A DNA stretch of 62,485 bases from an uncultured Alloprevotella sp. (GTDB lineage: Bacteria > Bacteroidota > Bacteroidia > Bacteroidales > Bacteroidaceae): assembly GCA_944322325.1 (NCBI GenBank), contig CALUOQ010000014.1, positions 1 through 62,485 on the forward strand, written 5' to 3'. Position numbers and translations under genes: made by a program. The first letter of the stretch is position 1. Each line of letters starts with the position of its first letter. The notes beneath the pieces are model-generated. The model had not been told where the DNA came from. It ran no database searches and saw only the letters and a list, made by a program, of their open reading frames with translations. Below, in pieces: positions 1-54,208 of this stretch.

Positions 1-5
1 AAGGG

Positions 6-161: not shown

Positions 162-165
162 AGTT

Positions 166-516
166 TTAGCGTTTACGTTTGAAACATTTCTGAATGCGGA
201 TTGCTGAATCACAATTTTCATTACTGCTTGAAACCAGTTGCTGGTGTGCCCACTCAATAAGAGCTTTACGGGAAAAGACAAGTTTGTTTCCATACTTCAT
301 AAAAGGTATTTGTTCTTGCGAAGTCATTTTGTACAATTTTGCCTTTGAAGTCGGGAATCCGTTATCTTCCAATACTTTCAGCGCATTGGGCATACTTAGT
401 GTATCAGGCAAATCAGAACTGAATATAGTCTGTTGATTTCCTGAAAAGAATTTTGAAACCGCATTGAATACAGCTTCTTGAATTTGCTCCTCTGTTGCGA
501 CAATAATATTTGCCAT
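166..516 (-). CDS. Excisionase-type helix-turn-helix DNA-binding protein
   Basis: A 116-residue protein of the small HTH type found beside tyrosine recombinases in Bacteroides integrative and mobilizable elements. The C-terminal half (about residues 40-95) has the MerR/excisionase-like pattern in which a helix pair is followed by a wing (residues around SKAKLYKMTSQ and GNKLVFSRKALIEW). ATG at 514-516 is chosen over the in-frame TTG at 520-522 because MANIIVATEEQ matches the usual start of the family as I remember it. Likely role: binding element DNA to direct excision or to regulate the next gene, whose ATG lies 5 bp downstream. Family-level function is inferred. Confidence 0.7.
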   Translation of the reverse strand: MANIIVATEEQIQEAVFNAVSKFFSGNQQTIFSSDLPDTLSMPNALKVLEDNGFPTSKAKLYKMTSQEQIPFMKYGNKLVFSRKALIEWAHQQLVSSSNENCDSAIRIQKCFKRKR

Positions 517-676
517 AATCAAACATTTTAGGGGTTAGACAATAAGCTGTCGTCACAGCTATCTCAACGTTGATGATGCAAAGGAAAAACAAAAAGAAGA
601 GCTTATAAAACGAGTAAATATCTGCATTAACAAAGACAAAAGAAGACATTAGCTGCCACAAGAGGACATGCAAATA

Positions 677-719
677 ATGCCATTCAGAGGTTTGGCAGCG
701 TCTGTCCTCTGAATGGCAT
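677..719 (-). repeat. Perfect 14-bp inverted repeat, possible terminator
   Basis: Arms at 677-690 and 706-719 are exact reverse complements around a 15-nt loop. It lies just beyond the 3' end of the HTH gene at 762-1169 and is followed on the minus strand by an AT-rich run, so transcription termination is the simplest reading. A recombination or replication site of the element is an alternative. The rest of 517-761 shows no gene. Confidence 0.55.
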
Positions 720-761
720 CAAATGGCACTTTTGATATAGATGATAAATTGAAATGCGATT

Positions 762-1169
762 TTATTGTTTTTGCTTGCGTAATTGCTTCGTTACTTCATC
801 CACATTAAAATAGTTAAAGCATACATGTGGGTCTTGACAGGGTTTTATCAACCCGTCTTTTATCCATTTGTTTACAGATGCAGGAGTGGTTCTCATCCAT
901 TTGGCTAAATGAGTATTTGTCACTAGATATCTTCCGTTCAGTTGGGTAAGAGTATGTTTGTTTGCGGAGAATCCACGTTGCAAGCGGTCTATCAGTACAT
1001 CAATGTCCTTCTTTATGATTTTAGGGGCAGGTCTGTTTTTCTTGATACTTATTTCGATAGAAGTCATATCAAAGTTTGCCAGCTGAGGGAGTTGGGACAG
1101 CTCCGCAATCAGATACTGGGCACATTTTAGGTCTCTGATTTTGAATGTCAGTTGCTTGCGTCTTGGCAT
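762..1169 (-). CDS. Element-borne HTH protein of unknown target
   Basis: A 135-residue basic protein. The last 60 residues look like an excisionase/MerR-type HTH: the stretch around NTHLAKWMRTTPASVNKWIKDG fits two helices with the recognition helix at SVNKWI. The N-terminal half (RRKQLTFKIRDLKCAQYLIAEL) has no motif I recognise. The gene overlaps the end of the AlbA_2 gene by 22 bp, so the two are probably co-transcribed. Its base composition matches the AT-rich element, not the GC-rich chromosome. Likely an element regulator or accessory factor; a precise role cannot be given. Confidence 0.6.
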   Translation of the reverse strand: MPRRKQLTFKIRDLKCAQYLIAELSQLPQLANFDMTSIEISIKKNRPAPKIIKKDIDVLIDRLQRGFSANKHTLTQLNGRYLVTNTHLAKWMRTTPASVNKWIKDGLIKPCQDPHVCFNYFNVDEVTKQLRKQKQ

Positions 1170-2704: not shown

Positions 2705-2714
2705 ACTGTTTTGT

Positions 2715-3977
2715 TTATAATACTTTTACCGCTTCGTCTATTACACTACTGGCAAAACTATCCAAGTAAGTATTGGTCGTTGCCAAATCGCTGTGCCCTA
2801 ATATCTGTGAGATAACTTCTCTCGGTACTTGATTGTCCTGCAAAGTCATAGCCATTGTATGACGACTTACATAGCTTGTCAGTTTCATATCCGTAATCTC
2901 CAAAACTTTCGCTAAGTTAGTCAAATTCTTGTTATTGCGTCCAAAACGGCTACGAATATGATTATAAAGTTGCTCTCCTTTATATCCTGCAATAGAAACT
3001 ATTGGTAACAAGTAATCTTCTACTAATAATGTATTAGCTGAAAACCAATTCATTAACTCTTGGATTTCAGGAGTTATCTTAATCTGAATAGGTTTGACTT
3101 TCTTAGCTTCTTTTGTTTTATTCCGTTTATAAACAATATAATTTCCACCGTTATAACGGATAATATTCTTTTTAGTTAGCAATGCTGCATCTATAAACGA
3201 TATACCATAACAGTAATATGAAAAGAGAAATAATCTTCGTGTCCGTTCAAGTACAGCATTATCCATCACTGTTGTTTTTAGTTTCAACATGGAGTCATGC
3301 GGTAAATAACGTTTAGTCGTTTCTTCTTCCAATGATGAAATGCTAAAACCGCCCTTACCAAATGGGTAAGTTGTTTCCGAGGCTTCACCATCTTGGATAG
3401 CCTTGTTTAATACAGCACGTAAAGTCTTAAAATAGAACTTCCGAGTATTCCCTTTACATTCACGTTTTTGTAAAAATACATCAAAAGATTTTACATATTT
3501 AATATCTATTTCAGGGAAAACACGTTCAGACAGTTTCTCGTCAAAGAGTTCTAATACGTGAAGTGTTCTGCTATAGCAGTTGGCATTGCCAATATGATTG
3601 GTATCTTTATAAGTTTGAATTAGATTTTCAAAGAATTCCTTTACATTCCCTTTGTTTGAGTAGTGAAAGAATTCTTGTTCGAATTGATTTAGTGTCCAAT
3701 CAATTTTATTGGCATCGAAATCTGCTATAATGCGAAGTATTTCCGATTTCTTTTGCGTTAACCATTCGTTGAGGTATATTCGGTCTGGATGTAATCTGGG
3801 AACACGCTTATCTGTGACAAACATTTCAAGTTTATCATTCCATTGATGCGGTTCTGCATAAATGCCTAACGCCATCACCTTCCGTTTATTATTCTTGCGA
3901 ACAACCAACCAAATAGCATATCCTTCTTTATAGTGATATTTATCGGCTATCCACATCTTAAATGAAGCATATTTCAT
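2715..3977 (-). CDS. Tyrosine recombinase (integrase) of the integrative element
   Basis: A 420-residue site-specific recombinase. An N-terminal arm-binding part (1-90) and SAM-like core-binding part (about 100-195) precede the catalytic domain (about 215-420). Visible catalytic residues are R372 in SYVSRHT, H395 in LGHSD and the nucleophile Y404 in TNTYLDS. The place where Bacteroidales integrases usually carry the first catalytic Arg (RGMSF) reads YGISF with Y257. ATG at 3975-3977 is preferred over the upstream in-frame GTG at 3984-3986. The gene is the last one before the chromosome junction near 4200, as expected for an integrase beside its attachment site. A promoter-like box lies at 4149-4156, giving a long leader. 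Confidence 0.9.
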   Translation of the reverse strand: MKYASFKMWIADKYHYKEGYAIWLVVRKNNKRKVMALGIYAEPHQWNDKLEMFVTDKRVPRLHPDRIYLNEWLTQKKSEILRIIADFDANKIDWTLNQFEQEFFHYSNKGNVKEFFENLIQTYKDTNHIGNANCYSRTLHVLELFDEKLSERVFPEIDIKYVKSFDVFLQKRECKGNTRKFYFKTLRAVLNKAIQDGEASETTYPFGKGGFSISSLEEETTKRYLPHDSMLKLKTTVMDNAVLERTRRLFLFSYYCYGISFIDAALLTKKNIIRYNGGNYIVYKRNKTKEAKKVKPIQIKITPEIQELMNWFSANTLLVEDYLLPIVSIAGYKGEQLYNHIRSRFGRNNKNLTNLAKVLEITDMKLTSYVSRHTMAMTLQDNQVPREVISQILGHSDLATTNTYLDSFASSVIDEAVKVL

Positions 3978-3989
3978 AAGTGACACAAA

Positions 3990-4082
3990 TTACTGACATT
4001 TTACTTTTGCTAAAAAATATTGGACTATAGCTATCGGATTACCAATGATTTATCTACTTTATTTTACTGACGGATTACTGAC
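3990..4082. repeat. Three copies of TTACTGAC, possible recombinase arm sites
   Basis: TTACTGAC occurs at 3990-3997, 4064-4071 and 4075-4082, all in the same orientation, between the integrase start and the chromosome junction. The last two are 11 bp apart, about one helical turn. Placement and spacing suit arm-type binding sites for the recombinase or its excisionase. The role is inferred. Confidence 0.45.
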
Positions 4083-38484: not shown

Positions 38485-38551
38485 CGAGCGGACAAAGGAT
38501 CTCCGGCCTTTGTCTGCTCTTCTTTTTGCATTCCCCGGGCAAGGCGGGCTT

Positions 38552-38622
38552 CGCGGCAAAGCGGCCTCGCGGGCGTGCCTCGCGGCGCGCCCCTGCGCGG
38601 CTACGCCCGTCGTGGTGGACGC
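38552..38622. repeat. 70-bp direct repeat, left copy
   Basis: Begins CGCGGCAAAGCGGCCTCGCG. It recurs with about two differences at 38741-38811. Both copies end in GGCTACGCCCGTCGTGG. Short frames crossing this area are products of the G/C-rich repeat and are not credible genes. Confidence 0.8.
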
Positions 38623-38740
38623 TGTCCCTGCTTTCAGAAAGATGGAAATATGCGGATTTTCAAGGCCGTATGGCACGTAGGGGCGCGCCATCAGGCACGC
38701 CCAACAAGCGCAAACAACGCGAATGCGGCAAGTCGGACCT

Positions 38741-38811
38741 CGCGGCAAAGCGGCCTCGCGGGCGTGCCTCGCGGCGCGCCCCTACGCGGCTACGCCCGTC
38801 GTGGCGGACGC
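38741..38811. repeat. 70-bp direct repeat, right copy
   Basis: Second copy, 189 bp from the first. Between them lies an inverted piece (CGTAGGGGCGCGCC, about 38675-38690) complementary to GGCGCGCCCCTACG inside this copy. The stretch 38191-39123 otherwise shows no gene. Confidence 0.8.
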
Positions 38812-39123: not shown

Positions 39124-42084
39124 ATGAACAAGCTATTCCCCCTGGCCTTGACCCTGCTGGGCGCGGCCTCCGTACCGAACAGTTTCGCCGCCCTGCCCGC
39201 AGGCACCGTGCTCACCGCTCCCCGCCCCTTGGCCGCAGCAGCCGAAGGCACCGTCGTAGAGTATCCCGCCGGCAGCGGCACGTTCTACACCCTCAGCAAC
39301 GTCGGCAACAACTATGCCTATCTCACCGCCATCACGTCTCAGGCGGAAAGCATCACGATCCCTGACTCGCTCGACATCGACGGCGTCCCACGCGCCGTCT
39401 CCTTCATAGGAATGAACGACACGCCCCTCGACCTGACGGGCAGCCCCAACCTGCGCTCCCTCACCCTGCCCGCCACGGTCAACATCATCTACAGTAACGC
39501 CCTGCCCGCCTGGCCCGAGCTCCACTTGCAGGGCACCCGCGTGCCCGACCTCTACAACGGTGCCTCGCTGGACAACGTCAGCGCCGTCTACGTCCCCGCC
39601 GAGGCCCTGGCCACCTACGAGAGCCGATGGCCCGACGCCAACGTGTGGCCCGAGGGATGGACCCCCACGCGCCTGACCATAGACAACACCGCGCCCGGCG
39701 AGCTGGCGCAGAAAATCCTCGCCCACATCGACAACGACTGGACGCGGGTCAACGAGCTCACCGTGACGGGCACCATGAACAGCCAGGACTTCCAGACGCT
39801 GGGCCGCCTGACGCACCTGACGGCCGTCGACCTCTCGGCCACCGACGCCACGTCGCTGCCCGCCTCCACCTTCAACGGCAAAAAGCGCCTGACCCGCGTC
39901 GTCCTGCCCGACGGCCTCACCACGATCGGCAACTCCGTCTTTTATCAGTGCCGCCGCCTGTCGGACATCGACCTCAGCCATGTGCTGTCCATCGGCGACG
40001 ACGCCTTCGCCTATTGCTACGCGCTCAAACACGTCGACTTCTCCGACGAGCTGACCGAGCTGGTCCACGGCTCCTTCTACGGGGCCGGGCTCGAGAGCGT
40101 CAGCCTCCCGGCCTCGCTCAAAGCGATCAGTTCACAGGCCTTCTCCAACTGCGCCTCGCTCAGCCGCGTCGAGCTGGCCGAGGGCCTCGCGACCATCGAG
40201 AGCTACGCCTTCGAAGGCACGGCCCTCGCCGAAATACAGTGCCCCGCCAGCCTGCGCATCATCGGGAGCAACGCCTTTGCCTACTGCAACGACCTGACCA
40301 CCGTCCAGCTCAACGAAGGGCTTACCACCATCGACAACGACGCCTTCCGCAGCTGCCCCAGCCTCACCTCGATGGTATGGCCCTCCACACTGACGGATTG
40401 CCCGGCCGGCGCGTTCTACCAGTCGGAGGCCATGCGCGAACTGACCGTGAAGGCCGTCCTGCCGCCCAACACCGGCGGCACCTGTCCCCTCGAGAGCGTC
40501 GACCTGACCTACGCCACACTCCGCGTCCCCGCCGTCTCGGTCGACGCCTACCGCCAGGCCAGCGGATGGAACCAGTTCCTGACCATCCTGCCCCTCGAAG
40601 GCGACATCGCCACGATACGCGTGGACCGCGCCTTCACCGTGGCCGACGCCGCCACCCTGACGGGCCAGCCCGACATCACGCTCGTACACAACGACAGCAA
40701 GAGCAGCAACTACGCCCAGCTGACCGTCGACGGCACCGCCACGCTCGCCGCCGGCGACTTCACGCAGAGCCACCGCCTGGACTACCGCCCGACAGACAAC
40801 GGCAGCGTGCACACGGCGCTCATCACCAACGCCCCCATGACGGCCGAGAGCGTCAGCGTCAGGATGCGCTTCTACACCGACCGCTGGCACTTCATCTCCT
40901 TCCCCTTCGACGTGCGCGTGGCCGACATCCAGGTGCCCGAAGGCACGTACTGGGTCATCCGCAAATACTCCGGCGCCGACCGCGCCGCGGCCCGCATGGA
41001 CGCCACGTGGCAGAACATGACGGCCGACAGCACGCTCCACGCCAAGGAGGGCTACATCCTGCAACTCACCAGCCAGAACGAAAGCCGCGTCGAACTGACC
41101 TTCCCCGCCGTCGATAACTCCAACAAGAACCGCTACTTCGCCGCGGACGACGTGCAGGTGCCGCTCAGCAAGTACGTCGCCGAGTTCTCGCACAACCGCA
41201 GCTGGAACCTCGTCGGCAACCCCTACCCGGCCTACTACGACAGCCGCCTCATCGAGCACAGCGGACCCATCACCGTGTGGGACGGCGACAACTACGTGGC
41301 CTACTCCCTCGAGGACGACAGCTACGTTCTCAAGCCCGGCGAGGCCTTCTTCGTGCAGCGGCCCGACGACGAGGCGGCCATGGTCTTCGCCGCCGAGGGA
41401 CGCCAGCTCAATGAAACGACCGTCAGCCGCACCCTGGCGCGACGCCTTGCGCCCGCCGGCCGTACCGTGGTCAACCTGACGCTCACGGGCGACAGCCTCG
41501 CCGACCGCACCCGCGTCGTGCTCAACGACGAGGCCAGCCCGGCCTACGAGCTCGAGCGCGACGCCTCGAAGTTCATGAGCTCCAATCCCGACGCGCCCCA
41601 GCTCTACAGCCAGGCCGACGGCGTGCGCTACGCCATCAACGAACGTCCTGCGGCCGACGGCCGCGTCAGCCTCGGCGCCAGCTTCGGCCACGACGGACGC
41701 TACATCCTGGCGCTCGCCTCGTGCTCCGACGCCCGGACCGGCGTCACCCTCGTCGACCGGCAGACGGGCAGCGAGACCGACCTGACGCGCGGCGCCTACA
41801 CCTTCGACGCCCTGGCCGGCACGGCCGACGGGCGCTTCGAACTGCGCCTCACGTCCGTGCCCACCGCCATCGACGACGCCGGGGCAGCCGCCTCCTGCCG
41901 CGTAAGCACGGCCGCCGGACTGCTCTGCATCGAGGCCCCGCAGGCCGTCCTCGTCACCGTGACGGCGGCCGACGGACGCCAGCTCTACCGCGCCCGGACC
42001 GCGGGTGTCCGCCTCGACGTGCCCGCCGGCGTCTACATCGTCCGCGCCGGCAGCTTCACGCAAAAGGTCAGTGTCACGGAATAA
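39124..42084 (+). CDS. BspA-like leucine-rich repeat surface protein with T9SS tail
   Basis: A 986-residue secreted protein. Signal peptide about 1-22 (cleavage near SFA-A). LRR_5 (BspA-type, Treponema pallidum repeat) units occupy about residues 173-440: repeated LTTIGNSVFYQCRRL-like, AISSQAFSNCASL-like and TIDNDAFRSCPSL-like blocks. The middle (about 480-760) is beta-rich, with a GWNLVGNPYP segment near 700. The tail (about 935-986) reads VTAADGRQLYRAR...GVYIVRAGSFTQKVSV, a T9SS sorting domain. BspA-like proteins bind host matrix proteins in relatives; adhesion is therefore inferred. First gene of a three-gene operon with gaps of 22 and 12 bp. Confidence 0.88.
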   Translation: MNKLFPLALTLLGAASVPNSFAALPAGTVLTAPRPLAAAAEGTVVEYPAGSGTFYTLSNVGNNYAYLTAITSQAESITIPDSLDIDGVPRAVSFIGMNDTPLDLTGSPNLRSLTLPATVNIIYSNALPAWPELHLQGTRVPDLYNGASLDNVSAVYVPAEALATYESRWPDANVWPEGWTPTRLTIDNTAPGELAQKILAHIDNDWTRVNELTVTGTMNSQDFQTLGRLTHLTAVDLSATDATSLPASTFNGKKRLTRVVLPDGLTTIGNSVFYQCRRLSDIDLSHVLSIGDDAFAYCYALKHVDFSDELTELVHGSFYGAGLESVSLPASLKAISSQAFSNCASLSRVELAEGLATIESYAFEGTALAEIQCPASLRIIGSNAFAYCNDLTTVQLNEGLTTIDNDAFRSCPSLTSMVWPSTLTDCPAGAFYQSEAMRELTVKAVLPPNTGGTCPLESVDLTYATLRVPAVSVDAYRQASGWNQFLTILPLEGDIATIRVDRAFTVADAATLTGQPDITLVHNDSKSSNYAQLTVDGTATLAAGDFTQSHRLDYRPTDNGSVHTALITNAPMTAESVSVRMRFYTDRWHFISFPFDVRVADIQVPEGTYWVIRKYSGADRAAARMDATWQNMTADSTLHAKEGYILQLTSQNESRVELTFPAVDNSNKNRYFAADDVQVPLSKYVAEFSHNRSWNLVGNPYPAYYDSRLIEHSGPITVWDGDNYVAYSLEDDSYVLKPGEAFFVQRPDDEAAMVFAAEGRQLNETTVSRTLARRLAPAGRTVVNLTLTGDSLADRTRVVLNDEASPAYELERDASKFMSSNPDAPQLYSQADGVRYAINERPAADGRVSLGASFGHDGRYILALASCSDARTGVTLVDRQTGSETDLTRGAYTFDALAGTADGRFELRLTSVPTAIDDAGAAASCRVSTAAGLLCIEAPQAVLVTVTAADGRQLYRARTAGVRLDVPAGVYIVRAGSFTQKVSVTE

Positions 42085-42106
42085 CCCCCTGCTAACGCCT
42101 TTCGCC

Positions 42107-45100
42107 ATGAAACGTATCACCCACCTGCTGGCGGCCCTGACGCGGCCGCTCAGCCACAGGCGCCTCCGCCTGGCCGGGCTCGGCCTGATTGCGGCCGTCG
42201 CGGCGCTGGCCGTCCCCGCGGTCAGCGGTCCCGCCGGCCCGGCACCCGCCCCCGCCGCGGCCGACACCGTCGTCGCGCCCCGCGCCGCCTACCGCGCTCT
42301 TGCGAGCGGCGAGGACTACGACCCCGACAATCCCGCCGACCCCGGCGTGCTCTACAACCTGACCGTCGCGGCCCAGCCCGCCATGGGCGGCAGCGTCAGC
42401 CCCTCCGGCCGCTCGCAGCGCACGCCCGGCGAGTCCGTCGCGCTGTCGGCCTCGCCACGCTCGGGATTCCGCTTCGTACGCTGGTCGCGCGACGGTGAAA
42501 CGGTCTCCACCTCCGCCCGCTTCAGCTATACCATGCCCGAGGGCCACGCCCGCCTCACGGCGGAGTTCGTCTACGACCCCGAAAACCCGGCCGACCCCGA
42601 CTCCGTCGGGCTGCGCCACACGCTCCACGTATCGGCCTCGCCCACCATGGGCGGCTACGTCAATGTCAACGCCCAGACCGTCATGACCGAGGGACAGACC
42701 CTCAGCCTGCACGCCACGCCGCGCACGGGCTTCGTCTTCCAGGGCTGGCGCCAGGAGGGACAGCCCGTGTCGACGCAGAACCCCCTGAGCGTCACGATGG
42801 GCACGGAGGACATCTACCTCACCGCCCTCTTCGCCTACGACCCCACGGCGCCCGACAACCCGAGCACCAACTCGTGGGACCCGGCGACCGGCCGCCTCGT
42901 CATCGACGACTTCACGCCGGGCTACCTCAGTAGCACCATCTCGAACCTCGTCGGCGACCGCAGCGCCATCCGCTCACTCACCGTCATCGGCACCGCCACC
43001 GAGGGCGACCTGCGGCAGTCCGGCCTCAGCGGCTGCAGCGCCATCGACTTCAGCCGCGTCACGGGCGTCACGACCCTCGGCTCGCACACGTTCACCGAGA
43101 GCTACTGCCCCGCCCTCGCGACGCTCAAGCTGCCGACCACCCTTACGCTCATCCGCTCGAACGCCTTCAACGCCTGCCCCAACCTGACGCAGCTCACCGT
43201 GCCGACCGCCGGACCGCCGACCCTCGAAGCCAACGCCTTGGCTGGCCTGCCCGAGGGGCTGATCATCTACGTCGACGGTTACTCGGAAGGATGGACCCAA
43301 CCCGACGAAGCCTGGACGGCCTTCGCCCTTTACTCCATGCAAGGCGACGAAGACTACGCCCCCACACTGGAGTTCACCCAAGGCGTCGATCTGCTCACCC
43401 CCGAAGTGTGGAGCCAGCCCGGCGCCACCCTGCAGTTCAACGTCCAGGCCAAGTACCTCAGCCCCTACGACATGCCGGGCACCGTCTGGTTCTCCGTCGA
43501 CAACGGCACATGGACGCAGTTCACCGACGAGCTTCAGCCCGGCGAGACATTCGACCACGTGCTCACCGTCCGCTTCACGGAAGGCGTGCCCACGCATACC
43601 CTCCGCTTCCATGCCGTCGACCGGGAGGACATCTATTCGGGCAATTGGAGTGTCAGCTACGCCGACGTCTCGTCCCTGCGCGCCGAGGGCATCGCCGACC
43701 AACCCTTCACCGGCGCGGCCGTGACGCAGCCCGACCTGGCGCTCTACGACCCCACCACGGACGAACAGCTCGTCGAGGGTACGCACTACACCCTCGGCTA
43801 CACGGACAACACCGACGCCGGCACGGCCTCCCTGACCGTCACCGGCCTCTACCCCTACTACGGCACCGTTCGCCACACGTTCGCCGTGCTCCCGCTGCGC
43901 CTTGAGGGCGACATCGAGCTGGCCGACCCCGACGCTCATTATACTTATACGGGCGCGCGCGTGACGCCCGCCGTCGCCTTCCGCTCCGCCGCCTATCCCG
44001 ACCTCGTCGAGGGGCGCGACTACCGCGTCGGCTACCGCGACAACGTGTTCCCGGGTCAGGCCGTCGTCGTCGTCGAGGGCATCGGCAACTACACCGGCAC
44101 CGTCGAACTGCCCTTCACCATCGCCAAGAAGGGCGTCGAGCTGGCCGACCTGACGCTCACGCTGCCCGCCCAGGCCGTCACCTACGACGGCGAGCCCCAC
44201 GCCGCCACCGTCGAGCCACGCGAGGGACTGGGCGCCTGCACCGTCAGCTACACCGACGCCGCGGGCCACACGACGACCGCCGCGCCCGTCGAGCCGGGCA
44301 CGTACACCGTCAGCCTCGACTTTGCCGAGGGCGCATACTTCACCGCCACGCACATCGCGGACGCCGGCAGCTTCACCATCCGCTCGGTGGCCACCAGCGA
44401 GTGGGACATCCTGCGCGCCTTCTACGCCGCCCTGGGCGACGGCGAGGGCTGGACCGTGAAGTGGGACATGACGGATGGCGCCGGCTCGGTGGCTTCGCTT
44501 TACGGCGTGACCACCTCGGGCGGCCACGTCACGGGCGTCGCCCTGCCGGCCAACGGCCTCAGCGGCGACCTGCCCGGCGTCCTCTTCACCCTGCCCTACC
44601 TCGAGCGGGTGGACCTCTCCGGCAACGCCCTGAGCGGCAGCCTCCACGAGCTCGTCGGCAGCGCCCTGGCCGCCGCCGGCACCGACCGCTCGACCGCCGT
44701 CAGCGTGGACCTCTCGGACAACGCCCTGACGGGCAACGCGGGCGCCTTTGCCCGGCTGCTGCCCGGCCTGACCACGCTCGACCTCAGCCAGAACCGCCTG
44801 ACGGACGTCGCGCCGGCCATCGCGCCCGGCGTCACGGCACTCGACCTCAGCGGCCAGACCATGGCGGCCACCGTCGCGCTCGACTGGACGCCCGGCAGCG
44901 TGCCCGTCGTGCCCGACGCGTTGCCCACCCTCCTGCTCTATGACCACGAGGCCCAAGGCTACACGGCCCCGCTCAGCTTCCGCCTCGCGGACGACGACGC
45001 CGAGCCCGTCTGGGAGGTCGAGGCACTGGCCGACGCCAGCGGCATCACGCTGCGCCTCCTCAGTGCCGACAACGCCTACCGCGGACAGAGCGGCGACCGG

Positions 45101-45991
45101 CTGGCCGCCACGGCCCTGACCGGCGCCGGCAAGGGGAGCCGCTTCGACGTCAGTCTGCGCTTCGCCGCGGGCGACGCCGACTTCAGCCGCACGGTCGACG
45201 TGGTCGACCTCCAGGCCCTCATCAACTACGCTTTCGGCAGCTACCGCACCGCGCCGTTCAACTACACGGCGGCCAACCACATCGCCGACGACGTCATCAA
45301 CGTGCAGGACGTCGTGCGCCAGGTCGACCTGCTGCTGCAACCGTCGGCCGACGCCACGGCCCAGACCCGCGGCCGGCCGGCCGGCCGCGCCGCCGCCCCC
45401 GACGGCGCACAGGCCCGCCTCTACGTCGAGGACGGCTGGCTGAAGTTGCAGTCGCCCGTGGCCGTCGGCGCCATCGACCTGACGCTGAGCGGCCTCGGCG
45501 AAGCCGACCTCACGTGGCAGAGTGCCACGGCCGGGTTTGCCCGCGCCCTGGCCGCCACGGACGACGGCCTGCACGCCATCGTCTACTCGCTCGAAGGCGA
45601 CAGCCTACCGGCCGGCGAATCGGTGCTGGCCCGCGTACCGGCTGCGTGCCGCGCGACCGCCGTCACACTGGCTTCGCCCCAGGCCCGCCGCATTGAGGCC
45701 ATCGCCGCCCAGGGCGGCACCGCCACCGGCCTCGACGCCGCGACATCCGGCCTCGGCGTGCGCACCGACGGGCGCAACCTGCTTGTCATCGCCGACGTCA
45801 CCCTCAGCGACGTCAGCTGGACGCTCCACGCCGCCGACGGCCGCCGCGTGGTCGGGGGCTACCTGCCCGCACTCCGGCCCGGCACGACGCGCGTCGACCT
45901 GCCCGCCCACCTGCCGCGTGGCACCTATGCCGTCACGCTCAAGGCAGGCGCCGAACTGCTGAGACAAGTAAAAATCATACTGAACCAATAA
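42107..45991 (+). CDS. Giant secreted multidomain protein with dockerin-like and cohesin-like modules
   Basis: A 1294-residue protein; the ATG at 42107 is followed by a long signal/anchor-like region (about 10-40). In order: two InlB B-repeat-like (List-Bact_rpt) units (about 82-245: PAMGGSV, PTMGGYV); LRR_5-type units (265-388); three MBG-like/Ig-like beta units (519-760, pattern EGTHYTLGYTDNTDAGTASL); conventional LRRs (798-925, LDLSQNRLTDV); a dockerin type I-like pair of calcium loops (1022-1082, GDADFSRTVDVVDLQALINYAF and a second half); a cohesin-like beta domain (1102-1205); and a T9SS-type tail (1228-1294). Predicted to be displayed on the surface. Partner is unknown; the neighbour's N-terminal cohesin-like domain is a candidate. 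Confidence 0.85.
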   Translation: MKRITHLLAALTRPLSHRRLRLAGLGLIAAVAALAVPAVSGPAGPAPAPAAADTVVAPRAAYRALASGEDYDPDNPADPGVLYNLTVAAQPAMGGSVSPSGRSQRTPGESVALSASPRSGFRFVRWSRDGETVSTSARFSYTMPEGHARLTAEFVYDPENPADPDSVGLRHTLHVSASPTMGGYVNVNAQTVMTEGQTLSLHATPRTGFVFQGWRQEGQPVSTQNPLSVTMGTEDIYLTALFAYDPTAPDNPSTNSWDPATGRLVIDDFTPGYLSSTISNLVGDRSAIRSLTVIGTATEGDLRQSGLSGCSAIDFSRVTGVTTLGSHTFTESYCPALATLKLPTTLTLIRSNAFNACPNLTQLTVPTAGPPTLEANALAGLPEGLIIYVDGYSEGWTQPDEAWTAFALYSMQGDEDYAPTLEFTQGVDLLTPEVWSQPGATLQFNVQAKYLSPYDMPGTVWFSVDNGTWTQFTDELQPGETFDHVLTVRFTEGVPTHTLRFHAVDREDIYSGNWSVSYADVSSLRAEGIADQPFTGAAVTQPDLALYDPTTDEQLVEGTHYTLGYTDNTDAGTASLTVTGLYPYYGTVRHTFAVLPLRLEGDIELADPDAHYTYTGARVTPAVAFRSAAYPDLVEGRDYRVGYRDNVFPGQAVVVVEGIGNYTGTVELPFTIAKKGVELADLTLTLPAQAVTYDGEPHAATVEPREGLGACTVSYTDAAGHTTTAAPVEPGTYTVSLDFAEGAYFTATHIADAGSFTIRSVATSEWDILRAFYAALGDGEGWTVKWDMTDGAGSVASLYGVTTSGGHVTGVALPANGLSGDLPGVLFTLPYLERVDLSGNALSGSLHELVGSALAAAGTDRSTAVSVDLSDNALTGNAGAFARLLPGLTTLDLSQNRLTDVAPAIAPGVTALDLSGQTMAATVALDWTPGSVPVVPDALPTLLLYDHEAQGYTAPLSFRLADDDAEPVWEVEALADASGITLRLLSADNAYRGQSGDRLAATALTGAGKGSRFDVSLRFAAGDADFSRTVDVVDLQALINYAFGSYRTAPFNYTAANHIADDVINVQDVVRQVDLLLQPSADATAQTRGRPAGRAAAPDGAQARLYVEDGWLKLQSPVAVGAIDLTLSGLGEADLTWQSATAGFARALAATDDGLHAIVYSLEGDSLPAGESVLARVPAACRATAVTLASPQARRIEAIAAQGGTATGLDAATSGLGVRTDGRNLLVIADVTLSDVSWTLHAADGRRVVGGYLPALRPGTTRVDLPAHLPRGTYAVTLKAGAELLRQVKIILNQ

Positions 45992-46003
45992 CGGGTCCTC
46001 CCT

Positions 46004-49000
46004 ATGAAAGCCATACGAATCATCGGCTGCCTCGTCGCCCTGCTGCTCGCGGCGACAGGCGCACAGGCCCAGACGGCCAACCGATTTACCCTGCCCGACG
46101 TCGAGGCCAGCCCCGACACGGGCGTCGAGCTGCCGTTCCGGCTCGACAACACGTCCGACATCGTCGCCCTGCAATTCACCCTGCGCGTGCCCACCGGTAC
46201 GCGCCTCGACCCGGCCTCGGTGGCCCTCACCGAGCGGAAGCAGGACCACACCGTCACGGCGCGCTCCACGGGGACGGACACCTACATGGTGATGGTCTAC
46301 TCGCCCACCAACCAGCCCCTCCGGGGCCGTGAGGGCGACGTGCTCACCGCCCGCCTCTACGTCGAGGGCGACCTCGCGGAAGGCGAGCGCTACCCCTTCA
46401 CGCTGACCGACGTCGTGCTGAGCCCGGCCGACGGGTCGAACGTACTGACCCAGGCCTCGGCGGGCGCCCTCGTCATGATGGCCGGGCCCGACCTCGCCGT
46501 GACGGGCGTCCGCCCGGCGACGGCTGAAGCCGACCCCGACGGCACGCTCGGCGTGGCCTGGCAGGTGAGCAACGCCGGCCAGCGCGCCACGGCCGGAGGG
46601 TGGAGCGAGCAAATCTCGCTGGTGACCGAAGGCGGGCAGCGCGCCCTGCTCGGCACCACGTACTACGAGGGCACCCTCGCCGCGGGCGCCTCGGCCAGCC
46701 GCAGTGCCGAACTGCGCGTGCCGCGCCTGCCGGGCCTCGACGGCAAGGCACGCGTGGAAGTGCGCCTCGTGCCCACCGCCGAAGCGGGCGAAGCCTCGGG
46801 CGACGTGGCCAACAACACGGCCCTCTCCGACGCTACGCTCAACGTGAGCCGCCGCCTCTACCTCGACCTGCCCGCCGCGGCTCTCGACGAGACCGCCACC
46901 ACGCCCGTGCGCTGCCAGCTGGCCCGCAGCGGCGACTGGACGGAAGCCCAGACATTCACCCTGACGCACACGGCCGACAGCCGCGTCAGCCTGCCCGCCA
47001 CGCTCACCGTGCCCGCCGGGCAGTCGGCCGCCGTGTTCTACCTGACGCTGACCGACAACGACGCCGTCGACGCCGACTCCACCGTCAGCGTCACGGCCAG
47101 CGGCGACGGCTATCCCGACGCGACGGGCACCTTCGTCATCGCCGACGACGAGCTGCCAGCCCTCGACGTGACGGCCTCGGCCGGCGAGGTGACCGAGGGC
47201 GAGCGCTTCACGCTGACCCTGCGCACGGCCCGTCCGGCCGCGGCGGACGTGACGTTCCTGCTGGACTGCGACGCGGCAAAACGCTTCGACTTCCCGGCCC
47301 GCGTGACGCTGCCGGCCGGCGAGAACGAGGTGAGCGTCGAGGTCACGGCCGTCGACGACGCCCGGCCCGACCTGACGCACTCCGTGACGTTCACCTTCAC
47401 CGGCGGAGGCTACGAACCGGGCGACGCCGTCGTGGCGCTCCACGACAACGACATGCCCACGCTCAGCCTCACGCTGACGCCGGCCACCGTGAGCGAAGGC
47501 GCCGGACCGACCGCCGTCATCGCCACCCTCAGCCGTGCGGACCACACCGAGAGCGAGCTGACCCTGCGCCTCTACGACAACTCGGAGGGCGGCCTCTACT
47601 ACACCACGCGCACGCTGACCCTCGCACCGGGACAGCAGAGCGTGCAGTTCAACCTCGGCCCCGTGGACAACGCCGAGGTGGACGGCGAGCGCACCGTCGA
47701 CGTGACGGCCGCCGTCTACGTCGCCTCGTGCGACTGTGCCGCCGGTGAAACGGAGGCCGGCCACGTCACGGCCCGCCTCACCGTGACCGACGACGACGGA
47801 CCCGCACTCACCCTCGCCACGCTCAACACGATGCTCAACGAGGGCGACGACGCGGCCACCGTGCTCACCCTGACGCGCAACACGCCGACCGACCAGCCCC
47901 TGACGGTCGCCCTGACCGCCGACACGGACGCTGCGCTCGTTCTTCCTGGCGCAGCGACGATTCCGGCGGGCGCTGCGTCCGTTGACCTCACCGTAGGCGT
48001 CGCGTCCGACGACGTGCAGCAGGGCGACCGCACCGTCGTCGTTACCGCTACGGCCGAAGGCTTCGCCCCGGCCACGTGCTGGGTGATGGTGACGGACCGC
48101 ACCCTGCCCGACGCCACCCTGACCGACCTCACGCTGACCCCCGCTGAGGGCGAAACGGGCACCGAAGCACAGGCCAGCGTCACCGTCAAGAACGAAGGCG
48201 CCGCCACGCTGCCGGCCCAGACCGCCGTACACCTGTACCTCGGCGAGGGGACCGACACACTGCTCACCACCCTCTACACGCCGCAGGCCGTCGAGCCGGG
48301 CAGCGCCGTGACGGTGGTCAAGACGTTCGCCCTGCCCGACGCTCTGGGCCGCCACACGGTGCGCGCCGTCGTCAACGAGGACGAGGACGTCAAGGAGCTC
48401 ACCACCCTCAACAACGCCGCGCCGCGCCCGGCCACCCTCACCATACGCCCGGCCTTCACGGCCACCCTCACGACGGACAAGGCCGCCTACGCCCCCGGCG
48501 AGGCCGTCCGCTTCACGGGACAGCTCAGCGGCCACTTCGCCGCGGGCGACGAGGTGGAGGTCTACGTCGTCAACGAGGGCGCGCGCCAGACCGTCACCGC
48601 CACCGCCGACGCCGACGGCCGGTTCTCCCTGACGTGGACGCCCTATGCCCGCCAGATGGGCCACTTCGCCGCCGGAGCCTGCTATCCCGGCGAGGCACTC
48701 ACGACGGAGCAGGCAGCCTTCGACGTGTACGGCCTGCGCCGCACGACGGACGACTACCTGACCTGCGAAACGCTGGTGGGCGAAGCCTTCACGGGCACGG
48801 TGGACCTCACGAATCCCGGCAGCCTGGCCCTGAGCGGCCTCAAGGTCGAAGCCCTCACGACGCCCGACGACTGCCAGGTGGAACTCAGCATACCCGCCAC
48901 CCTGGCCCCCGGCGCCACGGCCACCCTCAGCTACACCCTGACGCCCACCGCCCCCACGGCGGGCAACGACTGGCAGGAAATCCCCCTGCGCCTGACCACG

Positions 49001-52000
49001 GCCGAGGGCGCCAGCCTCGACCTGACGCTCTACCACTACGCCCGCTCGCCGCGGGCCCGACTCACAGCCAGCCTGGAGCGCATCGCCACGACGATGACCA
49101 AGGGCGCCTCGCGCGAGTACTCCTTCACCATAAGCAACACGGGCAAGGGCGCGACGGGCCCCATCACGCTGTCGCTGCCCCCGTCGGGCTGGATGCAGGC
49201 GGCCACGCCGGCCACCATGGCCTCGCTCGAAAGCGGCGAGGCGACCACCGTCACGCTGCGCCTGACGCCGACGGACGACATGGCGCTCAACGTGCCCGTC
49301 ACCGGCCAGATAGGCATCAACTGCGCGAACGGCGCGGGCCTCGCCCTGCCCTATGAGGTGGAACCCGTCTCCGAGTCGACCGGCACGCTGACCGTCGACG
49401 TATGCGACGAGTACACCTACTACACCGCCGAGGCGCCCCACGTGGCCGGAGCCTCCGTCACCGTGAAGCACCCCACGACAGGCGCCCTCGTGGCCCAAGG
49501 CACCACCGGCGCCGACGGCCGCTTCACCGCCACCCTGCCCGAAGGCTACTACACCGTGAGCGTCACGGCCGACCGGCACGACCGCTATACGAACACCATC
49601 GTGGTCGACCCGGGCCGCGACAAGGCCCTTACGGTCAACCTGAGCTTCCAGGCTATCTCGGTGACCTGGAAAGTCGAAGAAACGACCGTGGAGGACGAGT
49701 ACAACATCATGACAACCGTGAAGTACGAGACCAACGTCCCGATGCCCGTCGTCGAGACCGTCATTCCCCAGCGAATCCCGGCGGATGAACTTAAAGAAGG
49801 CGAATCACTGCTGTTCAACGCAGTAGTGACGAACCGTGGCCTCATCACGGCACGCGACGTCGAAATCATACTGCCCGAGGACCTCACGACCCTTACGTTC
49901 ACCTCACTCGTAGAAATGCCTGTCGATTTGGCACCCCAGCAAGCAATCGTTGTTCCAGTGAAAGTCACAAGAGTAGCACCCACCGCGGCTCTGGCCCGCA
50001 GTTCACGTACCAAGGCAGCAAGAGCCGGTGGCGACGAATGTGCAAGTGACATAGGCACGCTCTATTTCTGGGATTGCGGCCTCGACGAGAAATGGCACCG
50101 TTACGACGCCGCACTTCAGCTCGGCGGTTGCTCGGGCGACAATATACCCTCAGGCGATGCTCCCGACAACAATCCTCGCCCACACTTCCCAGGATTGCCT
50201 GGTGGCGGAGGTGGAAACACCAATGCCGGCGGCAGTGGCAGTTACGGCGCCTACGAGGACGGCAGTCCAATGTCACCTACGGCAGTCGACGAAGGCTGCG
50301 AGCCTTGCCAGAACAGCTTCCTATGGAAGATGTCGAAGTGTGTAGTCGGACGAATACCTATTGTAGAAAAAGTAACAGAATTCGTCGAAGCCCTGCAATG
50401 CGTGGGCCAAGTCGTCGTAGACGGTCAGCTTACGTGCTTATGGGATTACGTAATGGTCCCCGAAATAGTTGAAAAAATCGTCGGATACCAGGAACTTTAC
50501 GAAGACTGCCTCGTTCCGCTGTTCGAACCATGTAATCCCGGAGACTTCGGCAACAAGAGCAAAGCCGCACCAGGCAAGAAACTTGCCCAACTACTACCGG
50601 AGGGTTATCCTTCATACATAGAGGAATACCTCGAAGTCGTACTTCAAACAAATAAAGCTGTAGACGCCAGCATAGGCAAAGTAATAGAAATGTTTGGTGA
50701 CTCGGCATGGTTATACGTCGACGGAAAGGAAATGCAGGCCTTCCATGAAGGAGTAAACCAGTGGATGGCAGGAACACTCAGCATCGAAGCAGTAACTGCA
50801 CTCCGTCCCAGCAACATCAGTCAAGAAATTTGTACTCATTTCCTTGAACGCTGGGCCAACACGGTCAACCAAACGAACGACGACAACCGCGTACACTTTG
50901 ACATCATAAACCAACTCTCCGATGAAGTAACTGCATCCTATGACTTTGCAGCTGATAAAGGTTATTCGGACCTGAGCGAGATGTTCAAAACGGAGACCGA
51001 CCTCGTCATGGAGCGCCTCGACGATGCCTCCAACTCCGTCTGCGCCTCCATCACGTTGCAGCTGTCGCAGACGATGACGATGACGCGACAGGCCTTCCGC
51101 GGCACGCTGAGCGTGTTCAACGGCAACGAGACCATCGCCATGACCGACGTGCGCCTCAACCTCGAGGTGCGCGACGAGGAGGGCCGACTGGCCACGAGCC
51201 ACGAGTTCCAGACGAACGTCGAGAGCCTCGACCAGTTCGACGGCGACCTGGCGCTCGACGCGCCCTGGACCCTCGCGGGCGGCCAGACCGGCACGGCGAC
51301 CATCCTGTTCATCCCCACGCGCTACGCCGCGCCCACGGCCGACCGCGAGTACTCCTTCGGCGGCACGCTGAGCTACGTCGACCCCTTCACCGGCCTGCGC
51401 GTGGAGCGCGAGCTCTACCCCGTGACGCTCACGGTGAAGCCCTCGCCCGTGCTCGACCTGACGTACTTCATGCAGCGCGACGTCCTGGGCGACGACGCCC
51501 TGACGACCGACGTTGTCGAACCGACCGTGCCGGCCGAGTTTGCCCTCCTCGTGCGCAACACGGGCAAGGGCGACGCCACCAATGTGCGCATCGTCACCGA
51601 GCAGCCCGAGATTGTCGAAAACGAGAAAGGCCTGCTCATCGACTTCAGCCTGCTGAGTGCGCAGCTCAACGGCGGCGAGCACACGCTGGCCCTCGGCGGC
51701 AGCGTGCCCGTGGACTTCGGCACCATCGAGGCCGGCGGTTCGGCCTACGCGCAGTGGTGGATCGAAAGCTCTCTGCTCGGCCACTTCACTGACTACGACG
51801 TCGAGGCCACCCACGCCACCAGCTACGGCAACGAGGACCTCTCGCTGCTGGGCCAGGTGAGCATCCACGAACTCACGCGCAGCCTCAGCCTCACCGACAG
51901 CGAGGGCCAGGCCACCGTGGGCTTCCTCACGAACGACATCGCCGACGCCGACGACCGGCCCGACGCCCTCTACCTGACGGACGGCTCCATCCTCGACGTG

Positions 52001-54208
52001 GCCGCGCCCGCCGGAGCCAGCGTCGAGCAACAGAGCCCGACGCAGTACGCCCTGACCGTCACGACGGCGGGCGAGGGCTGGACCTACGGCTCCGTGGCCG
52101 ACCCCACCGGCGGACGCCAGACGCTGGCCGCCGTGCGCCGGCAGAGCGACGGGGCCGACGTGCCGCTGCGCAACTTCTGGCAGACGGACCGCACCCTGCG
52201 CGACGGGCGCGACCCGCTCTATGAAAACCGCCTGCACTTCGCCGACCGCATGGGCGCCGCGGGCGAGACGTACGTCCTCACCTTCGATCCGCGGCCCGAG
52301 GTGGAACTGGCGGTCGAGGCCTTCACCGGCGTGCCCGAGAGCGGCACCGTGGCCTCGCAGCCCGTCGGCCGACTGACGGTGCGCTTCAACAAGCCCGTCG
52401 ACGCCGCCACCTTCACGGCGGACGACGTGCGCCTCAACTGCCAGGGCGAGCCCGTCGACCTCGCCGGCCTCGCCATCGAGGCCGTCAGCGACCGCGAGTT
52501 CATCCTCGACCTCACGGCCCTGACCGCAGCCGACGGCTATTACGTCCTGACCGTCCAGACCGCCGGCATCACCGACGCCGAGGGCTTCGACGGCCGCGAC
52601 GGCCGCACGGCGGACTGGGTGCAGTTCGCCTCCGGCCAGGTCGACCTTACCCTCCAGGCCCAGCCCGAGGAGGGCGGCACGGTCAGCCCCGCGTCGGGTC
52701 CGCAACCCGTCGGCGCCACCGTACACCTCGAGGCCCGGGCGGCCGAGGGCTTCACCTTCAGCCACTGGCTTGAGGGCTCGGAGCGCCTCTCGGCCGAGCC
52801 GCAGCTCGACTACACGGTGCGCGCGGCCGCCACGCTGACGGCGGTCTTCACGCAGCGCAACGTGGCCCTGACGCTGACCTATACCGACGAGGGCGGCAGC
52901 GTCGAGGGCGGCGGCACGGGCCTCTACCCCTACGGCACCGAGGTGGTGCTCACCGCCACGCCGCGGCCGGGCTACCTGTTCGAGGGATGGCGCGCCGACG
53001 GCGCCCTGGTCGAGACCGACGCCACGCTGCGCTGGACGCTGACCGACGCTGTGACGCTCGAAGCGGTCTTTGTGGTGCAGCCCGCCGTCGTGCCCGAGAC
53101 GCAGACCCTGACCCTCGCGCCGGGCTGGAACTGGCTTTCCGTGCGCGTCGACGACCCGCTCCTGACCGACCCGGCCCGGCTGCTGGCGCCTGCCGCCGCT
53201 GACGGGGCCCGCTTCGTCGGCGCCGAGGGCGAACTGGCCTGTGCGGCCGACGGCGACTGGAGCGGCACGCTCGCTGCCATCGACGCCACGCGGAGCTACA
53301 AGCTGCGCGCCGCGACCGACGCCACGCTGACGCTCACGGGCGAACCTCTCGACCCCGACCGCCACACCATCACGCTCGACGACGGCTGGAACTGGGTGGG
53401 CTACCTCCCGGCCGAGGCCAGCTCGCTCGACGCAGCCCTCGACAACCTGCCGGCCACGGCGGGCGACGCCGTACGCGCCCAGGACGCCTTCGCCCTCTAC
53501 GACGGCGCCAACTGGGTGGGCTCGCTGGCCGAACTGCGGCCGGGCGAGGGCTACCAGTTCTACTCGCAGGGCGTGAAGTCGTTCAGCTACTCCGCCTCGG
53601 GCGCACGGCAGGTACGCCGCGCCGCGCGCGAGGTGGCCCAGCCCGCACCGTGGAGCTATGACGCCCGCCGCTACCGCGACAACATGGCTGTCGTGGCACG
53701 CCTCTACGTGGACGGCAGCGAGGCCGAGGCCGGACGCTACGTCGTCGGCGCCTTCGTCGGCGACGAGTGTCGCGGCGTCAGCCAGGAACGCGACGGCCTC
53801 CACTTCCTCACCATCCACGGCGAGACGGACGGCGAGGCCCTCACCCTGCGCCTTTGGGACGGCACGACGGGGCAAAGCCTCGACGTCGCCGAGCGCCTCA
53901 GCTTCGCCGACGGCCTGACGGGCAGCCTGACCGAACCGCTGCGCCTCACGGCGGGCACGTCCGTGGGCCTCGACGACGCCCGCGGCGGACTGACGCTCTA
54001 CCCCAACCCGGTGCGCACGCGCCTCTACCTGCGCGGCGACATAGGCCGCGTCCGCCGCGTGAACATCACCGACATGAGCGGCTCGCTGCGCCTCCGCACC
54101 GACCGCGTCGGGCAGGGCATCGACGTGAGCGCCTTCAGTCCCGGCACGTACCTCATCGTCGTCCAGACCGACGACAAGGTCTACCGCAGGAAGTTCCTGA
54201 AGTACTAA
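46004..54208 (+). CDS. 2734-residue giant secreted adhesin-like protein with T9SS tail
   Basis: Signal peptide about 1-23 (LLAATGAQA-Q). Modules: cohesin-like domain (24-165); CARDB-like (163-285); about four Calx-beta-like units (285-705); second CARDB-like (703-818); Ig-like units (818-1120); carboxypeptidase-regulatory-like domain (about 1125-1215, GASVTVKHPTTGALVAQG); a Cys-rich, Gly-linker-containing helical region encoded by distinctly AT-richer DNA (about 1215-1662); further beta domains; two InlB B-repeat-like units (about 2213-2360); GWNWLSV and GWNWVGY modules; and a classic T9SS tail (2663-2734: LTLYPNPV...TDMSGSL...FSPGTYLIVVQT...KFLKY). Last gene of the three-gene operon, closed by a strong terminator. 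Function inferred as adhesion or scaffold. Confidence 0.88.
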   Translation: MKAIRIIGCLVALLLAATGAQAQTANRFTLPDVEASPDTGVELPFRLDNTSDIVALQFTLRVPTGTRLDPASVALTERKQDHTVTARSTGTDTYMVMVYSPTNQPLRGREGDVLTARLYVEGDLAEGERYPFTLTDVVLSPADGSNVLTQASAGALVMMAGPDLAVTGVRPATAEADPDGTLGVAWQVSNAGQRATAGGWSEQISLVTEGGQRALLGTTYYEGTLAAGASASRSAELRVPRLPGLDGKARVEVRLVPTAEAGEASGDVANNTALSDATLNVSRRLYLDLPAAALDETATTPVRCQLARSGDWTEAQTFTLTHTADSRVSLPATLTVPAGQSAAVFYLTLTDNDAVDADSTVSVTASGDGYPDATGTFVIADDELPALDVTASAGEVTEGERFTLTLRTARPAAADVTFLLDCDAAKRFDFPARVTLPAGENEVSVEVTAVDDARPDLTHSVTFTFTGGGYEPGDAVVALHDNDMPTLSLTLTPATVSEGAGPTAVIATLSRADHTESELTLRLYDNSEGGLYYTTRTLTLAPGQQSVQFNLGPVDNAEVDGERTVDVTAAVYVASCDCAAGETEAGHVTARLTVTDDDGPALTLATLNTMLNEGDDAATVLTLTRNTPTDQPLTVALTADTDAALVLPGAATIPAGAASVDLTVGVASDDVQQGDRTVVVTATAEGFAPATCWVMVTDRTLPDATLTDLTLTPAEGETGTEAQASVTVKNEGAATLPAQTAVHLYLGEGTDTLLTTLYTPQAVEPGSAVTVVKTFALPDALGRHTVRAVVNEDEDVKELTTLNNAAPRPATLTIRPAFTATLTTDKAAYAPGEAVRFTGQLSGHFAAGDEVEVYVVNEGARQTVTATADADGRFSLTWTPYARQMGHFAAGACYPGEALTTEQAAFDVYGLRRTTDDYLTCETLVGEAFTGTVDLTNPGSLALSGLKVEALTTPDDCQVELSIPATLAPGATATLSYTLTPTAPTAGNDWQEIPLRLTTAEGASLDLTLYHYARSPRARLTASLERIATTMTKGASREYSFTISNTGKGATGPITLSLPPSGWMQAATPATMASLESGEATTVTLRLTPTDDMALNVPVTGQIGINCANGAGLALPYEVEPVSESTGTLTVDVCDEYTYYTAEAPHVAGASVTVKHPTTGALVAQGTTGADGRFTATLPEGYYTVSVTADRHDRYTNTIVVDPGRDKALTVNLSFQAISVTWKVEETTVEDEYNIMTTVKYETNVPMPVVETVIPQRIPADELKEGESLLFNAVVTNRGLITARDVEIILPEDLTTLTFTSLVEMPVDLAPQQAIVVPVKVTRVAPTAALARSSRTKAARAGGDECASDIGTLYFWDCGLDEKWHRYDAALQLGGCSGDNIPSGDAPDNNPRPHFPGLPGGGGGNTNAGGSGSYGAYEDGSPMSPTAVDEGCEPCQNSFLWKMSKCVVGRIPIVEKVTEFVEALQCVGQVVVDGQLTCLWDYVMVPEIVEKIVGYQELYEDCLVPLFEPCNPGDFGNKSKAAPGKKLAQLLPEGYPSYIEEYLEVVLQTNKAVDASIGKVIEMFGDSAWLYVDGKEMQAFHEGVNQWMAGTLSIEAVTALRPSNISQEICTHFLERWANTVNQTNDDNRVHFDIINQLSDEVTASYDFAADKGYSDLSEMFKTETDLVMERLDDASNSVCASITLQLSQTMTMTRQAFRGTLSVFNGNETIAMTDVRLNLEVRDEEGRLATSHEFQTNVESLDQFDGDLALDAPWTLAGGQTGTATILFIPTRYAAPTADREYSFGGTLSYVDPFTGLRVERELYPVTLTVKPSPVLDLTYFMQRDVLGDDALTTDVVEPTVPAEFALLVRNTGKGDATNVRIVTEQPEIVENEKGLLIDFSLLSAQLNGGEHTLALGGSVPVDFGTIEAGGSAYAQWWIESSLLGHFTDYDVEATHATSYGNEDLSLLGQVSIHELTRSLSLTDSEGQATVGFLTNDIADADDRPDALYLTDGSILDVAAPAGASVEQQSPTQYALTVTTAGEGWTYGSVADPTGGRQTLAAVRRQSDGADVPLRNFWQTDRTLRDGRDPLYENRLHFADRMGAAGETYVLTFDPRPEVELAVEAFTGVPESGTVASQPVGRLTVRFNKPVDAATFTADDVRLNCQGEPVDLAGLAIEAVSDREFILDLTALTAADGYYVLTVQTAGITDAEGFDGRDGRTADWVQFASGQVDLTLQAQPEEGGTVSPASGPQPVGATVHLEARAAEGFTFSHWLEGSERLSAEPQLDYTVRAAATLTAVFTQRNVALTLTYTDEGGSVEGGGTGLYPYGTEVVLTATPRPGYLFEGWRADGALVETDATLRWTLTDAVTLEAVFVVQPAVVPETQTLTLAPGWNWLSVRVDDPLLTDPARLLAPAAADGARFVGAEGELACAADGDWSGTLAAIDATRSYKLRAATDATLTLTGEPLDPDRHTITLDDGWNWVGYLPAEASSLDAALDNLPATAGDAVRAQDAFALYDGANWVGSLAELRPGEGYQFYSQGVKSFSYSASGARQVRRAAREVAQPAPWSYDARRYRDNMAVVARLYVDGSEAEAGRYVVGAFVGDECRGVSQERDGLHFLTIHGETDGEALTLRLWDGTTGQSLDVAERLSFADGLTGSLTEPLRLTAGTSVGLDDARGGLTLYPNPVRTRLYLRGDIGRVRRVNITDMSGSLRLRTDRVGQGIDVSAFSPGTYLIVVQTDDKVYRRKFLKY

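Follow-up and report, generated by a model that had tools for sequence, protein, structure and literature searches.

Neighbouring genes for giant proteins with dockerin- and cohesin-type modules, a candidate surface joint in the type IX secretion setting of Prevotella-like Bacteroidales

Gene layout and secretion signals

The window analysed here (62,485 nt of contig CALUOQ010000014.1, uncultured Alloprevotella sp.) belongs to a genome of 2.72 Mb that is 90.67% complete. It contains three tandem ORFs on the plus strand, genes A, B and C, which lie head to tail with gaps of 22 nt (A–B) and 12 nt (B–C) and each begin with a signal-peptide-like N-terminus, as read off the sequence (Table 1). The first-pass annotation had described tandem giant proteins with cohesin- and dockerin-type modules, and this was confirmed. 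A, B and C are made from a single run of genes, presumably as one transcript; counts of promoter-like sites (2, both minus-strand and within C, versus 0.7 in shuffles) and of terminator-like sites (9 versus 8.3 in shuffles) were uninformative on the operon. Two intergenic direct repeats of 85 nt, 94% identical, were observed upstream of A at window positions 38538–38811, and GC content was 0.36–0.39 at positions 1–4000 compared with 0.53–0.73 over the remaining window.

Table 1 Features of the three-gene locus, with positions in the window
Feature	Position	Strand	Description
Gene A	39124..42084	+	986 aa; signal-peptide-like start, BspA-type LRR (LRR_5), possible T9SS tail
Gene B	42107..45991	+	1294 aa; InlB-B repeats, LRRs, dockerin, companion cohesin, T9SS-like tail
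B InlB-B (Flg_new_2 / Flg_new) repeats	42362..42826	+	residues 86-240; profile matches
B dockerin	45161..45346	+	residues 1019-1080; predicted fold
B companion cohesin	45404..45721	+	residues 1100-1205; predicted fold; without R..H motif
B sorting tail	45752..45988	+	modelled as beta-sandwich
B–C gap	45992..46003	+	12 nt from B stop (TAA) to C start, same frame
Gene C	46004..54208	+	2734 aa; cohesin, CARDB and other Ig-like domains, InlB-B repeats, T9SS tail
C N-terminal cohesin	46067..46492	+	residues about 22-163; R..H kind, as in multi-cohesin proteins
C T9SS type A sorting tail	53996..54202	+	residues 2665-2733; profile matches

Export by the type IX secretion system (T9SS) had been proposed from the tails of all three proteins. 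C carries a type A sorting tail (TIGR04183, 44.1 bits against a cut-off of 23) and the genome encodes T9SS machinery, including PorU (1011 bits) and SprA_N, which bears out the T9SS context. TIGR04183 gave 13 matches in the genome at E ≤ 0.01, nine of them above the cut-off, and within the window it matched C only. Neither TIGR04183 nor PF18962 matched A or B at E ≤ 1; a local tail profile scored 17.8 bits on B, 10.1 on A and 9.4 on the best negative. Of the three tails claimed, that of C stands; B has a T9SS-like end, modelled as a beta-sandwich, and A has a possible tail at most. Presumably at least B and C are T9SS cargo, and A and B would both be exported.

Dockerin and cohesin modules of B and C

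Cohesins and dockerins were absent from the Pfam and NCBIfam matches of the full-length window proteins at E ≤ 1, B matching neither PF00404 (type I dockerin) nor PF00963 (cohesin) at that level, and the C cohesin reached 15.2 bits with PF00963, under the cut-off of 24.1. The identity of the modules came only via homologues and structure. Structure prediction gave a dockerin fold for the B module and cohesin folds both for its companion and for the N-terminal module of C, in agreement with the earlier description of a calcium-loop pair beside a cohesin-like domain in B and of a cohesin-like start of C.

Type I dockerins bind calcium through loop positions 1, 3, 5, 9 and 12. With the position numbering that we assume for B, and as read from the alignment, loop 1 is complete (D1023-D1025-S1027-D1031-D1034) and loop 2 (N1057-D1061-N1065-D1068) is imperfect, having I at position 3; this dockerin may bind calcium. 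PF00404 matched at E ≤ 1 in 16 of the 17 aligned family members, the B protein of the window being the sole exception. Among 57 dockerin sequences, D18, D45 and D52 (model numbering) were invariant and D7 and N49 were at least 90% conserved. The model of the B dockerin with its own cohesin reached a pTM of 0.86 despite a low-confidence linker, where the pTM formula gives about 0.54–0.57 if the two are mutually unplaced, hence the two modules are predicted to be held in a fixed, rigid placement.

Further along C, GC content falls to 0.49–0.58 at window positions 49604–51103 (residues 1201–1700), inside a gene of about 0.7. Residues 1401–1700 are poorly conserved (14–26% among seven orthologues) next to 47–65% over the adjoining residues 1701–1900, and from the sequences this mid-region looks like a variable insert within the giant protein.

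Conservation of the gene pair across homologous loci

The conserved region of C (residues 1661–1999) was used as the query against a collection of species genomes, giving 123 relatives, with 80 loci kept. According to their records, these belong to Prevotella, Prevotellaceae, Bacteroidaceae, Muribaculaceae and further groups, and rumen and gut samples are the source of many. Both features could be scored in 66 of the 80 loci; the start of C was cut off in seven, and seven lay outside both classes (L099, L112, L123, L130, L157, L158 and L162), including L162, whose upstream dockerin gene escaped the filter and shares an overlap with C.

For all 56 C homologues that begin with a cohesin, the gene immediately upstream, at a distance of −4 to 58 nt (median 13), encodes a dockerin, so that the order of dockerin gene and cohesin-first gene seen in the window is conserved. 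C homologues with an internal cohesin have an immediately upstream dockerin in 0 of 10 cases. As a background, the dockerin profile matched 11 and the cohesin profile 10 of the 312 other ORFs in the same 80 loci.

In nine of the ten internal-cohesin loci, an A-like gene lies upstream and InlB-type repeats precede the cohesin in C (seven of the nine starts were read by eye, the other two by module positions). It is as if the first part of B had been fused to C, with the LRR, dockerin, cohesin and tail of B lost. Two of the nine have dockerin genes further away, after C in L088 and three genes before it in L139. In the tenth locus, L159, B-like and C-like parts lie in a single ORF, which has both dockerin and cohesin profile matches; directly before its C-type cohesin, visual inspection showed another dockerin-like stretch, which the profile did not match.

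Dockerin–cohesin units beyond the C family

Dockerin genes were also surveyed in 61 genomes, the window's own and 60 relatives. Of 36 dockerin–cohesin units, 21 were followed by a cohesin on the same strand within 1.2 kb and 15 were not; leaving aside the 12 units that seeded the profile, 9 of 24 were followed. Rough arithmetic (about three cohesin matches per 2–3 Mb genome) puts the chance expectation at roughly one in a thousand per unit. Shorter dockerin matches were followed by a cohesin in 10 of 88 cases. Followed matches numbered 27 of 42 across the 23 genomes that have under 10 dockerin matches each, and 4 of 82 across the four that have at least 10 (G004, G007, G027 and G039). These counts leave out 10 of 134 dockerin-search rows that matched the cohesin part only and four cohesin-search rows from G017 (E 4.9e-5 to 5.7e-5), and one pair of the window's genome, on contig C5, was not scored as followed as its match extended into the next gene.

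The arrangement occurs in more than one gene family, including CotH-type (two scanned), InlB-repeat type and other, unnamed ones. On contig C5 (L075), a 495-aa InlB-repeat, cohesin-like, dockerin-ended protein precedes a 492-aa cohesin-first protein, in which Pfam found nothing. The cohesin-first profile has three matches in the window's genome, C itself and two on C5, and, setting B aside, two dockerins pass the Pfam cut-off. Contig C12 of this genome (L085:3858-7724) encodes a protein that is GH31-like by eye, with a dockerin and a cohesin above the Pfam cut-offs and without a T9SS-like end.

Two dockerin-rich genomes show other layouts. G039, from another family, has 37 dockerin matches. 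Right after a dockerin gene it encodes tandem proteins of 2466 aa with eight cohesins and 1239 aa with five (L166, L167; local profile), both of which also carry InlB repeats and Por_Secre_tail; Pfam recovered two cohesin stretches in the five-cohesin protein and none in the eight-cohesin protein. A third G039 protein has at least seven cohesins by the local profile, and its gingipain-like C25 peptidases carry dockerins (L168, L170), two of the four scanned ending in a dockerin without a tail. G027, a member of the window's genus, has 24 dockerin matches (L173-L180), and among those scanned several dockerins form the C-terminal end of BspA-LRR proteins and one that of a C10 peptidase. Judging by these sequences, T9SS proteins of this order probably include cohesin–dockerin systems that act in trans, binding being presumed for them as well.

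Two kinds of cohesin

An R..H motif, picked after inspecting the alignment, is present in 55 of 56 cohesins that start C homologues, in 8 of 54 dockerin-adjacent cohesins and in 16 of the 20 from the multi-cohesin proteins of G039. In trees built from every third sequence, the 18 sampled B-family cohesins form a clade (support 0.995), and with all families included the dockerin-adjacent type is fully split from the cohesin-first and scaffold types at weak support (0.425). We read B as carrying a putative plug with its companion cohesin, and C as carrying a putative socket cohesin.

Evidence bearing on the joining of B and C

A read-through model of the end of B and the start of C gave a pTM of 0.65. 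The pTM formula gives 0.41–0.44 if the B pair alone is placed, 0.55–0.58 for the pair and the tail, 0.65–0.69 for the pair and the C cohesin and 0.78–0.83 for all four, so that the modelled value fits a placement of the dockerin, its own cohesin and the C cohesin together better than that of the B pair alone. This is an argument from a score and not from a contact map, and a partly placed tail could yield an equal pTM; the short tether of the read-through chain also favours contact. In a structure search with a model including the C cohesin, the alignments to 4n2o_F and 9gvb_A start within the dockerin, from model residues 44 and 45. A dockerin helix resting on the C cohesin would be compatible with this, but the observation is too indirect to count.

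Mirror-tree tests did not separate intramolecular from intermolecular pairing. By Pearson correlation with the dockerin distances, the C cohesin ranked first (0.80), ahead of the own cohesin and the pre-dockerin segment (both 0.74) and the next C segment (0.67); by Spearman correlation the pre-dockerin segment came first (0.61), with the own and C cohesins both at 0.58. Partial correlations tied (0.32 for the own cohesin, 0.31 for the C cohesin). Of the 56 pairs, one run used 54 and the other 53: pairs in which no own cohesin was detected were dropped, and the smaller run also dropped one pair that was too short before the dockerin.

Among the loci, L159 and the nine fused ones appear to provide a covalent link where other loci carry the modules, which we counted in favour of joining. 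Counting against it, nine loci keep the C cohesin though the B dockerin is lost, and the adjacency of B and C may only reflect linked inheritance. The low share of followed dockerins in the four dockerin-rich genomes (4 of 82), the rigid packing predicted for the B pair and the imperfect loop 2 of a dockerin that Pfam misses also weigh against it.

From the pTM and mirror-tree results, for and against, we therefore give binding between B and C, perhaps in an arrangement where the dockerin is flanked by its companion and the C cohesin, an even chance, and regard purely intramolecular docking as somewhat unlikely. The proposed binding draws on the folds of predicted models, gene order, conservation of the locus, recurrence of the arrangement in other gene families and the two kinds of cohesin. 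A, B and C would be surface proteins of Prevotella-like Bacteroidales, produced from one run of genes. B would end in a plug, the calcium-loop dockerin packed on its companion cohesin, ahead of the sorting tail, and C would begin with a socket cohesin of the second kind. After export the C socket would hold the B plug, possibly via a second face of the dockerin, and the LRR/InlB-repeat protein would thereby be joined non-covalently to a very long Ig-type stalk.

Since the B dockerin lies beside its own cohesin and the model of the pair is already rigid, intramolecular docking is a live rival: the dockerin would dock only on that cohesin, forming one rigid pre-tail module, and the C cohesin would be a paralogous Ig-like spacer or bind otherwise. 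It accounts for the pTM of 0.86, for the 15 of 36 units lacking a downstream cohesin and for the persistence of the C cohesin in nine loci without the B dockerin, but leaves unexplained the 56 of 56 adjoining cohesin-first genes, the two kinds of cohesin and the proteins ending in a bare dockerin that precede cohesin-first genes. We consider it quite improbable that both modules are structural fossils, stable surface spacers whose binding has been lost; the invariant and highly conserved dockerin residues and the pairing kept in 56 loci argue against this, against which stand the imperfect loop 2 of the window dockerin and its missing Pfam match. Least probable is that the partners lie elsewhere, with the C cohesin taking dockerins of other proteins and the B dockerin going to another scaffold: the C5 pair and the GH31-like C12 protein offer alternatives in the window's genome, and most dockerins of G027 and G039 have no adjoining cohesin gene, but such alternatives are few in the window's genome and 27 of 42 dockerins are followed by a cohesin where matches are few.

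A broader form of joining between B and C, in which a plug-and-socket code of gut Bacteroidales builds T9SS surface structures, is in our judgement unlikely. Under it, every cluster would supply a plug (dockerin and companion cohesin) and, in the following gene, a socket cohesin, and dockerin-ended proteins without a tail would rely on a tailed, cohesin-bearing neighbour for non-covalent sorting or anchoring. In its favour are L087, L122 and L157, where the dockerin terminates C itself and the next gene encodes a cohesin-first protein whose end is T9SS-like, and L152 and L155, where C is followed by a dockerin-ended protein and then by cohesin-first proteins with such ends (the ends in all five judged by eye). 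The C5 cluster (L075) and L073 likewise both have a dockerin-ended protein directly before a cohesin-first protein of this kind. Against it are L145 and L154, with a dockerin gene after C and no cohesin following, L088, where such a gene is followed by a dockerin–cohesin protein, L126 and L139, with a dockerin-ended gene without an adjoining cohesin gene, and L115, which ends at a dockerin-ended or short dockerin gene after C.

Relation to known cohesin–dockerin systems

Cohesin–dockerin pairs are the textbook joint of cellulosomes, and those of clostridia and ruminococci are anchored by SLH or sortase. The window shares with these type I systems both module folds, as predicted, and the two F-hand loops, the second of them imperfect, and its structure matches include the solved cellulosomal 1ohz, 4uyp, 6kgc and 5n5p. 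It differs in its T9SS setting, in the lack of a CAZyme and in the companion cohesin and sorting tail that come after the dockerin. A cellulosome combines dockerin-bearing CAZymes with a multi-cohesin scaffoldin, whereas A, B and C have single cohesins only and no catalytic family above its cut-off among Pfam and NCBIfam profiles, which supports the non-cellulosomal character proposed in the first-pass annotation. Cohesin folds outside cellulosomes are likewise found in glycosidases of Clostridium perfringens (2jh2, 2w1n, 2vo8) and in Archaeoglobus (2xdh), all among the structure matches; the C. perfringens cohesins sit on enzymes, those of the window on LRR/InlB/CARDB-type surface proteins. 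In X-module–dockerin dyads the dockerin has a packed companion beta domain, as in B, and we take the structure matches 5m0y and 4wkz to be of this type, whereas the companion in B is itself a cohesin and is positioned after the dockerin.

The closest parallel is the cellulosome-like complex proposed for Ca. Stygibacter (Cloacimonadota), with a T9SS-type surface-attached cohesin scaffold and dockerin proteins (PMC8542988). As far as the consulted sections of that paper describe it, tandem cohesins there lie in a protein with a C-terminal, T9SS-cargo-like attachment domain, and dockerins are carried by other secreted proteins including a C25 peptidase, both as in the systems described here. Unlike in the window, however, its scaffold has multiple cohesins along with carbohydrate-binding modules, and its dockerins are on enzymes; in the window each protein end has a single cohesin, partner genes adjoin and no catalytic family is above cut-off. 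In the sections seen, a T9SS paper describes cellulosomal modules as lacking, as in other Bacteroidetes genomes (PMC5831590), and metagenome and single-cell studies report dockerins in Bacteroidetes bins, with cohesins in camel rumen (PMC6071333, PMC7071664, PMC10266427). Among the matches listed from the open-access PMC literature, as far as their text was available, no description of an operon-coded dockerin/cohesin pair was found. A T9SS-displayed cohesin scaffold has thus been proposed before (PMC8542988), and the operon-coded neighbour pair appears, within the literature sampled, to be a new variant.

The occurrence of plug and socket modules in a T9SS setting, apparently without enzymes, suggests that they may build other cell-surface structures. 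B and C form a defined, testable pair, and the wider set of loci raises the question of how dockerin-ended proteins without a sorting tail get to the surface. If the proposal is true, the conserved pair on T9SS adhesin-like giants of rumen and gut Prevotella relatives would be a joint that assembles enzyme-free surface structures.
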